Below, in pieces: positions 5,884-14,769 of a stretch of DNA of 64,000 nucleotides. Source of the DNA: Fibrobacter sp. UWR2. GTDB taxonomy: Bacteria; Fibrobacterota; Fibrobacteria; Fibrobacterales; Fibrobacteraceae. Both the position numbers and the translations under genes were made by a program. Within the stretch, counting starts at the first letter, position 1. Every line of letters starts with the position of its first letter. A model generated the notes under the pieces. The model was not told the origin of the DNA and did no database searches. It saw nothing but the letters and a program-made list of their open reading frames with translations. The stretch is from assembly GCF_002210285.1 (NCBI RefSeq), contig NZ_MWQE01000002.1:124001-188000 (forward strand), given 5' to 3'.

Positions 5884-5918
5884 AGGAGATTTTGAACTCT
5901 ATGTTTATATTACATACT

Positions 5919-6479
5919 ATGAGAAAACTTACCTTGATTCTTTTAACACTTCTTCTGGGAGTCTCCATGGCTGCAGAAAAGAAAATCCTCGTCGTTTACT
6001 ATTCCCGCGCCGGCGAAAACTATTCCGTCGGGACAATCACCAAGGGCAATACCGAAATCATTGCTGAGATGATTGCGAAAAAGACGGGCGGCACGCTCTT
6101 GCATGTGGAACCCGCGAAGGAATATCCGAAGAAATACGACGACTGCATCAACGTGGCCAAGAAGGAACTTGCGCAGGACGCGCGCCCGGCCATCAAGCCG
6201 GTGAACGTGAATCCCGAAGATTACGACGAAATCTACGTCGGCTATCCGGTTTGGTGGGGCGAGATGCCCATGCCGATGTTCACTTTCTTCGAGAAGTATA
6301 ACCTGAAGGGCAAGACGATTCACCCGTTCGTGACGCACGAAGGTAGCGGGCTTTCTGGCGTGCAACGTCTCAAGAAGGTGACCGGCGCGAACGTGACAGC
6401 GGGCCTCGCCATTTACGGACACGTGGCACAGAACGAACGCGAAAAGGCCCAGAAAGAAGTGGACAAGTGGGTGAAGTAG
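5919..6479 (+). CDS. exported flavodoxin
   Basis: 186 residues from ATG 5919, chosen because the near-identical paralogue at 42363 starts at the same residue. ATG 5901 (AGGAG 12 bp upstream) and TTG 5892 are in-frame alternatives. A signal peptide (LTLILLTLLLGVSMAAEK) precedes a complete flavodoxin: VVYYSRAGENYSVG for the FMN phosphate, VGYPVWWGEMPMPMFTF, and VTHEGSGLSG. Periplasmic flavodoxins are rare; it would need an envelope electron donor. It lies 35 bp after the acetyltransferase and probably shares its promoter. Confidence 0.87.
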   Translation: MRKLTLILLTLLLGVSMAAEKKILVVYYSRAGENYSVGTITKGNTEIIAEMIAKKTGGTLLHVEPAKEYPKKYDDCINVAKKELAQDARPAIKPVNVNPEDYDEIYVGYPVWWGEMPMPMFTFFEKYNLKGKTIHPFVTHEGSGLSGVQRLKKVTGANVTAGLAIYGHVAQNEREKAQKEVDKWVK

Positions 6480-10404: not shown

Positions 10405-10467
10405 ACAGCGAAAGTTCTAACTAACCCTTGTTTTTTTTGTAACCAAATTTTTACTTTAAATTTCTAG

Positions 10468-10529
10468 TTGTTCTATTGACATTACAACAGCAATTGGATA
10501 TATTTTGTGTTGTAACAATTAAAGAACAA
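10468..10529. promoter_or_regulatory. promoter inside a long dyad operator (probably Rrf2)
   Basis: Near-consensus sigma-70 promoter TTGACA (10476-10481), 17 bp, TATATT (10499-10504). It sits inside a dyad with arms TTGTTCT-N7-TTACAACA (10468-10489) and TGTTGTAA-N7-AGAACAA (10508-10529). The 15 fixed positions match perfectly and the loop is 18 bp. A dimer or tetramer binding here would cover the promoter. The Rrf2 gene downstream is the obvious candidate. Confidence 0.75.
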
Positions 10530-10571
10530 CGAAAAAAAATAAAAAACGGGCTTGGCCCAAGGAGATTTAAA

Positions 10572-11369
10572 ATGGAAAAGAACAACTTCAAGACCGTAAA
10601 TCTTGGCAAGGGCGTCGTGGAAATCTACGATTTCGGCGCGGTCAAGCTGCATGCCTACAAGACAAACGACCTGATAACCGACGAATGTTTCTTGCTGGAA
10701 AAGGGCGGCAAGATGTTCATGGTCGAAGCCCCCTGTTTTTTCGACAACATTAGGGAACTGGAAGCCTACATCAAGGGCCTTTCGGTAGAATTCGTGGGAA
10801 CGGTGATTGCCTACCATGGCGCGGGCGCGACCTTCATGAAGGATGCTCCCGTGTACAGCACCCGCCATGCCGACGAATACAACCATAACGGAGGCGGTGC
10901 GGCCCTGGTCAAGAATTTCACGGCGGCTTTTGGCGATGCTTTTGACAACTCCATTTACGCGACGACAGAATTTATCGAAGGTGAGACTTTGAATCTCGCG
11001 GGCATCGACATGCGCATTGTCGCGACCCAGGAGGCATTCGATATCGAATTTCCCGAAATCAACGTTGTCTACACCCACATGATGGGCCACGACGTCCATT
11101 CCATCGTGGCAGGGAGCAAGCACGCCGATGCCATCATCGCACAACTTACGGACTACATCGACCGCGGGATTTCCCTGATTCTCACGTCGCACTACACGGT
11201 GGAAAACCTGGAAGATGCCCGTGCTAAAATCCAGTACCTGAAGGTGATGAAGAATATCGCCCTCAAGAACGTGAACCCGGCGGCATTCAAGAGCGCCATG
11301 AAGCAGGAATTTACGAACTACTCCGGCGAAAATTACCTGGACATGACGGCGGGAATGTTCTACAAATAG
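10572..11369 (+). CDS. metallo-beta-lactamase-fold protein with degenerate metal site
   Basis: 265 residues from ATG 10572 (AAGGAG 9 bp upstream). Fold signs: TDECFLLEKGGKMFMVEAPC (early strands), and late His-bearing strands VYTHMMGHDVHSI and LILTSHYTVEN. The zinc motif HxHxDH that should follow the fourth strand reads AYHGAGATFM, so most ligands at that site are gone. It may bind one metal or none. First gene of the Rrf2 / macrodomain / SirTM operon, 46 bp before the regulator. Function unknown. Confidence 0.62.
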   Translation: MEKNNFKTVNLGKGVVEIYDFGAVKLHAYKTNDLITDECFLLEKGGKMFMVEAPCFFDNIRELEAYIKGLSVEFVGTVIAYHGAGATFMKDAPVYSTRHADEYNHNGGGAALVKNFTAAFGDAFDNSIYATTEFIEGETLNLAGIDMRIVATQEAFDIEFPEINVVYTHMMGHDVHSIVAGSKHADAIIAQLTDYIDRGISLILTSHYTVENLEDARAKIQYLKVMKNIALKNVNPAAFKSAMKQEFTNYSGENYLDMTAGMFYK

Positions 11370-11415: not shown

Positions 11416-11955
11416 ATGAAAGTCAGCGTTCGTTTTACGGCAGCGGTCCACACCTTGCTTTGCATCCACTTCTTCGAGGGGGCGGAGCGGGTGACCTCGG
11501 AATTCATATCGGGCAGCACCGGCGTGAATGCGGTCATCATCCGCAAGGTTCTTTTGCAGTTGCAAAAGGCGGGCCTGGTAGAGACGGCTCCCGGCGTAGG
11601 GGGCTCTCACCTTGCACGTCCTGCAGACAAGATAACGCTCCTGGATGTCTACAAGGCCATCAACGATAACGACGAAGAACGGATCGTCTTCAGTTTCCAC
11701 CCGGAACCGAATCCGCTGTGCCCCGTAGGCAGGAACATCCATCGCCTGTTGGACCCAGCCCTGAATTCGGCGCAGACGGCTCTGGAAAGGGAGCTGGAAA
11801 AGACGACATTGAACGGACTCGCCGCACAACTCAAGACCGCCCCTGAACCGTCCGGGAGGAAACATGAACCAAGCAGAGCGCAGACTATTCCTGATAAAGT
11901 ATCTATTGGCGGAAAGTCCCAGGTACAGCGGCACGACCATCCCCGCGGACGCTGA
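11416..11955 (+). CDS. Rrf2-family regulator (YwnA-like)
   Basis: 179 residues from ATG 11416. Winged helix-turn-helix of the Rrf2 family: SVRFTAAVHTLLCIHFFEG, then VIIRKVLLQLQKAGLVET, then the wing GVGGSHLARP. No three-Cys Fe-S cluster is visible; a single Cys in NPLCPVG may be a sensor. Most family members have 130-160 residues; the last ~30 residues here are low-quality sequence read through the 92-bp overlap with the macrodomain gene. TAAATT lies 7 nt upstream of the ATG. Confidence 0.83.
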   Translation: MKVSVRFTAAVHTLLCIHFFEGAERVTSEFISGSTGVNAVIIRKVLLQLQKAGLVETAPGVGGSHLARPADKITLLDVYKAINDNDEERIVFSFHPEPNPLCPVGRNIHRLLDPALNSAQTALERELEKTTLNGLAAQLKTAPEPSGRKHEPSRAQTIPDKVSIGGKSQVQRHDHPRGR

Positions 11956-12685
11956 AGGGCAGAAATTCCTGTTGCGCGCCTTGATGAACGTGCGGGAGGC
12001 CGCCCCCGCAAGCGATGAATTCTACAGGATTCAGGACGAATACCTGCAGGAATCCATCCGTGACCGCGGAATAACGGATGTCGCGGACATCGAAAGTGTT
12101 GGCAGGCGGTTCAGTGCGGGTGCGCCGGACTTGTTTGGCGATTCCCTGTTTTTGTGGCGCGGCGACATCACCACCCTCAGGGTAGATGCAATCGTAAACG
12201 CGGCAAACAGCGGCATGACGGGATGCTGGCAGCCTTGCCACAGCTGTATTGACAACTGCATCCACACTTTCGCGGGAGTTCGTCTCCGTAGCGCTTGCGA
12301 CGCCCTGATGAAACGGCAAGGGCACCCCGAACCTACGGGACAGGCGAAAATCACGCCGGCCTACAACCTGCCCTGCAAATACGTGCTGCACACGGTGGGG
12401 CCAATCGTGGGCTACGGCCTTACGGAACGGGACTGCGAGTTGCTGGAATCGTGCTATAGAAACTGCCTCGATGTTGCGGCCCAGAACGGTGTGGAATCTA
12501 TAGCCTTCTGCTGTATTTCTACAGGTGTATTCCGTTTCCCGCCGGAACGTGCCGCCCAAATCGCGGTGGATACGGTGCTGGAATGGAAACGCCGTACGCA
12601 AAACCCCATGAAGGTTGTCTTTAACATTTTCAGCGAAAAGGACGAGGCTATCTATGCGCGGATTTTCGAAAAATTCAATGGATGA
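11864..12685 (+). CDS. zinc-type macrodomain protein (protein ADP-ribose hydrolase)
   Basis: 273 residues from ATG 11864 (GGGAGG 6 bp upstream), starting inside the Rrf2 gene. An N-terminal helical part (1-90) precedes a macrodomain: LWRGDITTLRVDAIVNAANS, then the zinc-macrodomain signature GCWQPCHSCIDNCIHTFAG with its Cys/His ligands, then ISTGVFRFPPERAA for the diphosphate loop. Zn-macrodomains remove ADP-ribose from proteins modified by SirTM sirtuins, and the next gene is one. The stop overlaps that gene by 8 bp. Confidence 0.88.
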   Translation: MNQAERRLFLIKYLLAESPRYSGTTIPADAEGQKFLLRALMNVREAAPASDEFYRIQDEYLQESIRDRGITDVADIESVGRRFSAGAPDLFGDSLFLWRGDITTLRVDAIVNAANSGMTGCWQPCHSCIDNCIHTFAGVRLRSACDALMKRQGHPEPTGQAKITPAYNLPCKYVLHTVGPIVGYGLTERDCELLESCYRNCLDVAAQNGVESIAFCCISTGVFRFPPERAAQIAVDTVLEWKRRTQNPMKVVFNIFSEKDEAIYARIFEKFNG

Positions 12686-13553
12686 TTTTTCTGCCGAAGT
12701 ATCGAGACTGAAAAAGGCGCTGGCAAGGGCGGATGCCGTCGTCGTGGGCGCGGGCGCCGGACTTTCGACATCGGCGGGATTTACCTATTCCGGGGAACGC
12801 TTTGTCAAGTACTTCGCCGACTTTTCTGTAAAGTACGGCTTTTCGGACATGTATTCCGGCGGCTTTTTCCCTTACGGCACACCCGAAGAAAAGTGGGCTT
12901 TCTGGAGCCGCTATGTCACGATAAACCGCTACATGGCCGCCCCGAAACCCGTCTACGAAAATCTCCTGAAAATCCTACGGGATAAGGATTACTTTGTCCT
13001 TACCACCAACGTGGACCATTGTTTCCAGAAAGCGGGCTTTGACAAGGAACGGCTCTTTTACACCCAGGGCGATTACGGGCTTTTCCAATGCAGCAAGCCG
13101 TGCCACCCCTGCACCTACGACAACGAAAAGCAGATTCGTGCCATGTTCGACGCCCAGGGATTTTCAAAAGAGACGGGCTTGTTCGGCGCCATGACCGTCC
13201 CTGCGAAACTGTTGCCCAGGTGTCCCATTTGCGGCCGCCCCATGTCCATGAACCTGCGTTCCGATTCCACCTTCGTAGAAGACGACGGCTGGCACCGTGC
13301 CGCAAAACGTTACCGCGAATTTCTCGACAGATGTAACGCCATGCGCGGCGGAAACGTGTTGTTCCTGGAACTGGGCGTAGGCATGAACACCCCCGGAATC
13401 ATCAAGTACCCGTTCTGGCAAATGACCGCCCTGAATTCGAACGCCACCTACGCCTGCATCAACTACGGACAGGCCTACGCTCCCGACGACATCGGAACCC
13501 GCTCGGTAAGCATCGACAGCGATATCGGCGAGGTGGTGACGAAACTTCTTTGA
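12678..13553 (+). CDS. SirTM-like sirtuin (protein mono-ADP-ribosyltransferase)
   Basis: 291 residues from ATG 12678, overlapping the macrodomain stop (ATGGATGA). Rossmann start DAVVVGAGAGLSTSAGFTYS, with the usual IPDFR replaced; VLTTNVDHCFQKAG; and a zinc ribbon C-PC-P (QCSKPCHPC plus RCPICGRPM). The catalytic region reads FYTQGDYGLFQCSKPC, with no His at the usual deacylase position, as in class M sirtuins that ADP-ribosylate lipoylated GcvH-like proteins. No GcvH-L or LplA gene is nearby. Confidence 0.86.
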   Translation: MDDFSAEVSRLKKALARADAVVVGAGAGLSTSAGFTYSGERFVKYFADFSVKYGFSDMYSGGFFPYGTPEEKWAFWSRYVTINRYMAAPKPVYENLLKILRDKDYFVLTTNVDHCFQKAGFDKERLFYTQGDYGLFQCSKPCHPCTYDNEKQIRAMFDAQGFSKETGLFGAMTVPAKLLPRCPICGRPMSMNLRSDSTFVEDDGWHRAAKRYREFLDRCNAMRGGNVLFLELGVGMNTPGIIKYPFWQMTALNSNATYACINYGQAYAPDDIGTRSVSIDSDIGEVVTKLL

Positions 13554-14151: not shown

Positions 14152-14769
14152 ATGAAAAAACTCGCAAGAATTTTCATTCCCGTCTTAACGCTCGCGCTTG
14201 CCCTGCTCTCCTTGGTGGGCTGTGCCGAGCGCAACAGGACTGACCAGAACGCCGATGCGGATTTCTCGAAAAAAGGCGATGTGCTGGTGGTGTATTTCAC
14301 CTGGTCTGGGCACCTGCGGAGCATGGCGCACTGGATTGCCGACGAAGTCGGAGCTGATTACGCCCGCATCTTGCGCAAGGAAGAATACCCTGTTAGCTAC
14401 AACGAAACAGTCGATGTCGCCAAAAAGGAAAAGGACGGAAATATTTATCCCGAGATAAACCTTTCCTTGAGCGACGAAGAAATGAAACGTTACAAGACGG
14501 TGTTTGTCGGCTTTCCGGTCTGGTGGTACGACGTGCCGATGCCCGTGATGACATTCCTGAAGCAGGCGAACTTGCAAGGCAAAAACGTCTATGCGTTCTT
14601 CTCTCACGAAGGGTCGTCCGATGGTGCAGGGAGCCTTCCTACACTCGAAAAGTTGATGCAGGCGAAGGGTGCTGCATTCGACAAGAAAACCGCCCTTTCT
14701 GTGCGCGGAAGCAAGGTCAAGGATTCCGAAACCGTTGTCCGCGAATGGGTGAAGGCGCTCTCGAAATAA
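14152..14769 (+). CDS. flavodoxin lipoprotein
   Basis: 205 residues from ATG 14152 (AAGGAA 8 bp upstream). Lipoprotein signal ALALLSLVGCAER, a short tether, then flavodoxin: VVYFTWSGHLRSMAHWIADE (phosphate loop with Trp-Ser-Gly), VGFPVWWYDVPMPVMTFLKQ, and FSHEGSSDGAG. It is the most divergent of the flavodoxin paralogues in the window. The PAP2 gene follows 16 bp later in the same direction, so the two are probably cotranscribed. Confidence 0.85.
   Translation: MKKLARIFIPVLTLALALLSLVGCAERNRTDQNADADFSKKGDVLVVYFTWSGHLRSMAHWIADEVGADYARILRKEEYPVSYNETVDVAKKEKDGNIYPEINLSLSDEEMKRYKTVFVGFPVWWYDVPMPVMTFLKQANLQGKNVYAFFSHEGSSDGAGSLPTLEKLMQAKGAAFDKKTALSVRGSKVKDSETVVREWVKALSK

Follow-up and report, generated by a model that had tools for sequence, protein, structure and literature searches.

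A dyad upstream of a four-gene operon of Fibrobacter sp. UWR2 is very probably an operator pair for the regulator encoded in the operon itself, a SifR/YwnA-type single-cysteine Rrf2 repressor. The regulator would thus control its own gene together with those of a metallo-beta-lactamase (MBL)-fold protein, a Zn-macrodomain hydrolase and a SirTM-class sirtuin (MBL-rrf2-macro-sirTM). The dyad was studied in a window of 64,000 nucleotides, which is the whole stretch of DNA that was analysed. Rrf2 binding, repression, cooperativity and the inducer are what we infer; direct support comes from the sequence, the geometry, conservation across phyla, co-occurrence with Rrf2, orthologous target genes and cysteine conservation.

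The dyad sits in a 167-bp intergenic stretch (10405-10571) upstream of a 265-codon gene (Table 1). Its arms, which read GTTGTTCT-N7-TTACAAC and in mirror GTTGTAA-N7-AGAACAAC, are complementary at 16 of 22 positions about a centre at 10498.5, directly before the -10 hexamer. The original prediction had placed the dyad at 10468-10529, centred on the start of the -10 and enclosing a near-perfect sigma-70 promoter. The sequence is present as described, with one more base at each end (10467-10530), the centre is where it was said to be, and the promoter TTGACA-N17-TATATT has 11 of 12 consensus matches. Transcription would start at about 10511, at the start of C. Within each arm, two half-sites form an imperfect palindrome, and the 18-bp cores are TGTTC-N8-TTACA in B (10469-10486) and TGTAA-N8-GAACA in C (10511-10528). 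The two centres are 42 bp apart and the boxes flank the -10. Box A is probably a third, auxiliary operator, restricted to Fibrobacter. Four half-sites had been proposed, to be occupied by two dimers of the Rrf2 protein encoded at 11416-11955, a view that the present results support; the half-sites are conserved in two phyla, but the words had to be corrected and are best written as an outer TGTTCT and an inner TGTAA, pairing as TGTWM-N8-KWACA. A 21-bp palindrome in each arm, TGTTSTAWTGWCAWTASAACA, was also considered. It fits B, but relatives differ at its outer A (10489), and the genome yielded no further copy above the level of a backwards control, so that it was dropped for the 18-bp TGTWM-N8-KWACA core.

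Table 1. Features of the promoter region and of the operon (window coordinates)
Feature	Position	Strand	Description
Box A	10438..10455	none	TGTAA-N8-TTACT; centre 31 bp upstream of that of B
Operator B (putative)	10467..10488	none	GT-TGTTC-N8-TTACA-AC, 22 bp
-35 hexamer	10476..10481	+	TTGACA, inside the N8 of B
-10 hexamer	10499..10504	+	TATATT, middle of the dyad
Operator C (putative)	10509..10530	none	GT-TGTAA-N8-GAACA-AC, 22 bp, about +1 to +20
GC hairpin	10548..10558	+	GGGC-TTG-GCCC, abuts Shine-Dalgarno AAGGAG (10559-10564)
Metallo-beta-lactamase-fold protein	10572..11369	+	First gene; AlphaFold model, Foldseek
Rrf2 regulator, YwnA/SifR-like	11416..11955	+	Second gene of the operon; proposed repressor
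Zn-macrodomain protein-ADP-ribose hydrolase	11864..12685	+	NF003163 above cut-off, 6.3e-106
SirTM-class sirtuin (protein ADP-ribosyltransferase class)	12681..13553	+	5a3a/5a3b/5a3c SIR2 family protein, 7.2e-61

When the 167-bp intergenic stretch was shuffled by dinucleotides, 7 of 300 shuffles equalled or exceeded the score of the dyad, any ungapped dyad across the whole stretch being scored. Symmetry statistics were therefore dropped as proof, and the earlier claim of a match far beyond chance, which is too strong for symmetry alone, must rest on specificity and conservation. As a specific word the dyad does stand out. Allowing up to three mismatches, the full pattern matches 20 of the 111 Fibrobacteraceae genomes and 19 of the 274 from the Treponema family, each of them at a single place; a backwards-control pattern had no match in either set. 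The palindromic B word, with the same tolerance, occurs once in the window and in none of 100 shuffles. The shuffling result is what speaks for reading the dyad as an RNA stem-loop or as symmetry that arose by chance in AT-rich promoter DNA. That reading is already contradicted and can be practically dismissed: the cores of the half-sites, unlike the flanks, have been retained in both phyla, and no Rfam family scored above threshold, the only match being a chance one below it. RNA structure across the dyad was ruled out, as transcription from this promoter is predicted to start downstream of the left arm, so that its transcript cannot pair the two arms.

The dyad precedes the MBL-rrf2-macro-sirTM operon in 21 of the 111 Fibrobacteraceae genomes, which are the 20 with the strict pattern and one with a 41-bp spacing (G034). 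Boxes A, B and C are present in all 21 aligned rows, drawn from 20 Fibrobacter genomes with two rows from G083. The B-C spacing is 42 bp in every row except one (41 bp). That between A and B is 31 bp, or 31.5 bp in L048, where box A is TGTAA-N9-TTACA. Other letter changes in box A are CGTAA in L043 and TTATT in L044, and its last base is T, A or C. Sought at the same place in Treponema dyads, box A was not conserved.

With the Rrf2 protein alone as the query, 16 Treponema loci were retrieved at 67-79% identity. The dyad is present in 15 of them, and the contig of the sixteenth begins inside the Rrf2 gene. Aligned across the two phyla, 38 distinct dyads with 42-bp spacing show at least 95% identity in every column of GTTCTATTGACATTACA, of TGTAA / AGAACA and of positions 10470-10486 within B. 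Most of the B-C spacer, most of the N8 of C (its first seven bases) and both flanks are variable. The alignment was anchored by the pattern with three mismatches allowed, which makes conservation conditional for pattern-derived loci; this bias does not affect the 15 Treponema loci retrieved through the protein. The order of half-sites, TGTTCT outside and TGTAA inside, is fixed among the aligned dyads. The spacing in 30 Treponema dyads was 42 bp in 19, 41 bp in 10 and 43 bp in one, so that some departure from exact phasing is tolerated. The original prediction had named loss of the arms in related genomes as part of its refutation, and had proposed a search for the dyad before other YwnA-like genes. 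The arms hold across two phyla, and the dyad was found before such genes or their operons. Judged from sequence, the dyad is real, and its conservation is the proof.

The loci share descent and the operon was apparently transferred from Treponema, so that counts of dyad and Rrf2 are not independent: in the 111 Fibrobacteraceae genomes, the dyad was accompanied by a close Rrf2 in 17 and occurred alone in four, Rrf2 occurred alone in none, and neither was found in 90, among which G097, bearing a more distant Rrf2, was scored. The contigs of the four genomes with the dyad only (G022, G071, G083, G088) end just past it. Within the Treponema family, in counts that are equally not independent, 29 of 274 genomes have an Rrf2 at 63% identity or above, and 17 of the 29 have the strict dyad; 11 of the other 12 have it at another spacing, and G171 is truncated. 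The strict dyad is found without such an Rrf2 in G226 and G432. In both, the operon of the dyad runs off the contig end, and G432 has an Rrf2 at 41% identity. Two close copies of Rrf2 are present in G222, and no dyad was found in the 11 kb of sequence examined for the copy adjoining a SirTM fragment.

The gene after the dyad may be YwnB-like, MBL-fold, SirTM or macro; in Treponema it is often closely homologous to pneumococcal YwnB (PDB 4R01, 1.7e-68). The dyad of G296 and G301 lies before a ywnB-like gene with Rrf2 on a separate contig, an arrangement that is a regulon in trans. Linked genes can be mere passengers, the binding of Rrf2 is deduced, and the half-sites differ from the SifR/HypR consensus, all of which would suit an operator for another, unlinked regulator, with the Rrf2 gene simply co-regulated. 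This is quite unlikely, however. Rrf2 tracks the dyad in the 111 and 274 genomes while MBL, macro, SirTM and YwnB come and go; these half-sites also lie a short way upstream of Rrf2 in divergent clades whose gene order differs; and both the TGTAA half-sites and the ywnB target agree with the characterised SifR (PMC9218516).

More distant Rrf2 loci were examined in 21 of 29 Treponema loci with an Rrf2 at 50-60% identity, leaving out G271, G413, G299, G380, G234, G232, G362 and G386. A TGTWM-N8-KWACA or TGTAA-N9-TTACA site is located at most 200 bp upstream of Rrf2 in 16 of the 21, and none is found within that distance in the other five (L179, L189, L192, L193, L194). Of these sites, 21 are of the N8 and 4 of the N9 form; the remaining 58,693 bp contain not one. 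No match anywhere in these loci was obtained with six control patterns, two with the half-sites reversed (N8 and N9) and four with spacers of N6, N7, N10 or N11. In several of the loci, the Rrf2 and MBL genes point away from each other, and the region between holds two sites about 60 bp apart. In G097, from another genus of Fibrobacteraceae, a 45% identical Rrf2 is encoded beside a cupin gene (L134, L026). The cupin promoter, TTGACA-N17-TATATT, has CGTAA-N9-TTACA over the -35 and TGTAA-N9-TTACA downstream, in the same two places as B and C. Sites of the SifR/HypR form in these places link the N8 sites of the window to the known N9 operators. The strict TGTAA-N9-TTACA form was found near relatives in L187, L188, L190, L191 and G097; no comparable operator site, of either form, was found in the examined loci of G165 (Rrf2 38% identical) or G098 (MBL homologue 28%).

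The regulator belongs to Pfam Rrf2 (PF02082, 1.6e-28, 99.9 bits against a cut-off of 30), and its closest PDB entries are 1ylf (4.6e-25) and YwnA, 1xd7 (7.4e-21). It has two cysteines only, Cys16 and Cys102. All 68 distinct relatives have the latter, which lies in the CPV motif named for SifR in PMC9218516. The former is retained in 63 of 68, so that a second thiol could play a part. The trio of Fe-S-ligating cysteines described for IscR is absent. An Rrf2 domain, a CPV cysteine without Fe-S ligands and homology to YwnA place the protein in the YwnA/SifR class. According to PMC9218516, SifR of Streptococcus pneumoniae is a homodimer that leaves DNA once quinones modify Cys102, and binds directly to ywnB, a proven target, through TGTAA-N9-TTACA.

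In the proposed mechanism, one reduced Rrf2 dimer on B would cover the -35, and a second on C would cover the start site and the initial 20 bases of the transcript. The two would jointly exclude RNA polymerase and turn the promoter off; with the -35 and the start site hidden, an otherwise strong promoter would be silent. As 42 bp correspond to four turns of 10.5 bp, both dimers would lie on one face of the DNA, and cooperation between B and C is plausible. In Fibrobacter only, a third dimer may occupy box A, close to three turns (31 bp) upstream. If the protein works like SifR, modification of Cys102 by an electrophile or oxidant would make Rrf2 leave the DNA, freeing the promoter for induction of the MBL-fold, rrf2, Zn-macro hydrolase and SirTM genes. 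Counting against the proposal are the departure of B and C from the published TGTAA-N9-TTACA (N8, and one TGTTC half each), the five siteless loci among the 21 distant ones, and the spacing of 41 or 43 bp in 11 of 30 Treponema dyads.

Operators that straddle the promoter, almost symmetrically about the -10, are more than a simple blocker needs, and the order of inner and outer half-sites is fixed. Rrf2 could therefore be pictured as an activator or a polymerase trap, with the dimer on B contacting the polymerase or remodelling the promoter and that on C tuning escape. This is unlikely, since a promoter with 11 of 12 consensus matches and the optimal 17-bp spacing has no need of activation, B covers the -35 itself, and SifR and HypR are repressors. 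Within the repressor proposal, a more specific possibility is tentatively suggested by the half-site order, which is mirror-symmetric about the -10 over roughly four turns and kept in two phyla: two Rrf2 dimers might assemble on a single DNA face, around the -10, into a bipartite repression complex, whether or not a polymerase is trapped between them.

The AlphaFold model of the first gene product (mean pLDDT 73) matches MBL-fold structures in Foldseek. The protein had no match at 0.001 in Pfam and NCBIfam, and the metallo-beta-lactamase motif HxHxDH is not obvious in its sequence. The Zn-macro ADP-ribosyl hydrolase and the SirTM are encoded by adjacent genes, as in SirTM/Zn-macro operons; entries 5a3a, 5a3b and 5a3c are presumably the SirTM structures of PMC4518038. 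Flavodoxin-like ORFs, so labelled by eye, are located near the operon (5892-6479 and 14152-14769), the second of which is also nearby in L056 and L059.

In 17 of 27 distinct leaders (including L064, L065, L069, L070, L071, L075, L076, L078, L126, L128 and L167), the dyad is followed by a short GC hairpin that abuts the Shine-Dalgarno sequence of the first gene, compared with 3 of 79 other ORFs of at least 100 codons preceded by a Shine-Dalgarno in the same loci, counts that ignore kinship and controls that include genes inside operons. The letters of the stem differ widely among loci, as if pairing alone were kept.

The distribution of the Rrf2-macro-SirTM operon is patchy, with a close Rrf2 in 17 of the 111 Fibrobacteraceae genomes; Treponema loci L063-L078 were compared. 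In a tree of Rrf2 proteins, those of Fibrobacter nest inside Treponema beside G167 and G171 (17-row group, 95/91, in a bootstrap not fully settled). This nesting suggests, at the level of sequence, a horizontal transfer of the operon from Treponema to Fibrobacter, between phyla and together with its promoter.

Regulator and operator, both conserved, would tie the operon to a quinone/thiol sensor and to a homologue of the YwnB quinone reductase, which provides a direct and testable trigger, and the operator code allows regulons to be predicted in other genomes. Should the bipartite complex be true, protein ADP-ribosylation by SirTM/Zn-macro would be under a thiol-electrophile sensor, in a system that would have spread between rumen spirochaetes and Fibrobacter with its regulatory sequence intact.

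Neither operators of Rrf2 proteins nor thiol-sensing repressors of this family are new. Among the publications listed on Rrf2 operators and regulons (Treponema, Fibrobacter, YwnA, HypR-merA) and on SirTM-macrodomain operons, judged by titles and the openings of abstracts, no Rrf2 operator pair mirrored about the -10 was found, nor N8 mixed half-sites, nor a link between an Rrf2 operator and SirTM/Zn-macro operons. One close system is SifR of the YwnA cluster in Streptococcus pneumoniae (PMC9218516), with which the following are in common: Cys102 in a CPV motif, TGTAA-type half-sites, a ywnB-type target gene and, as proposed here, a thiol switch. The regulon of SifR is described there as iron and quinone genes with 19-bp TGTAA-N9-TTACA sites, a form that boxes B and C do not have; the window instead has, ahead of a SirTM/Zn-macro operon, a pair of 18-bp N8 cores that mirror each other about the -10 and each contain a single TGTTC half-site. 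The HypR-merA operator of Staphylococcus aureus has the related core TGTAA-N9-TTACA and belongs to an autoregulated operon, with a redox-sensing Rrf2 as proposed for the window. HypR uses Cys33 and Cys99', as stated in papers citing the HypR work, and the window protein is far below the cut-off of the HypR family NF041852 (35.7 against 180 bits). The SirTM/Zn-macro operons of PMC4518038 and PMC11490716 share the adjacent Zn-macro and SirTM genes and the link to oxidative stress. In contrast with those operons, the four genes in the window include neither GcvH-L nor LplA2; what is found instead is an Rrf2 regulator with putative operators, along with a gene of the MBL-fold or YwnB-like type.
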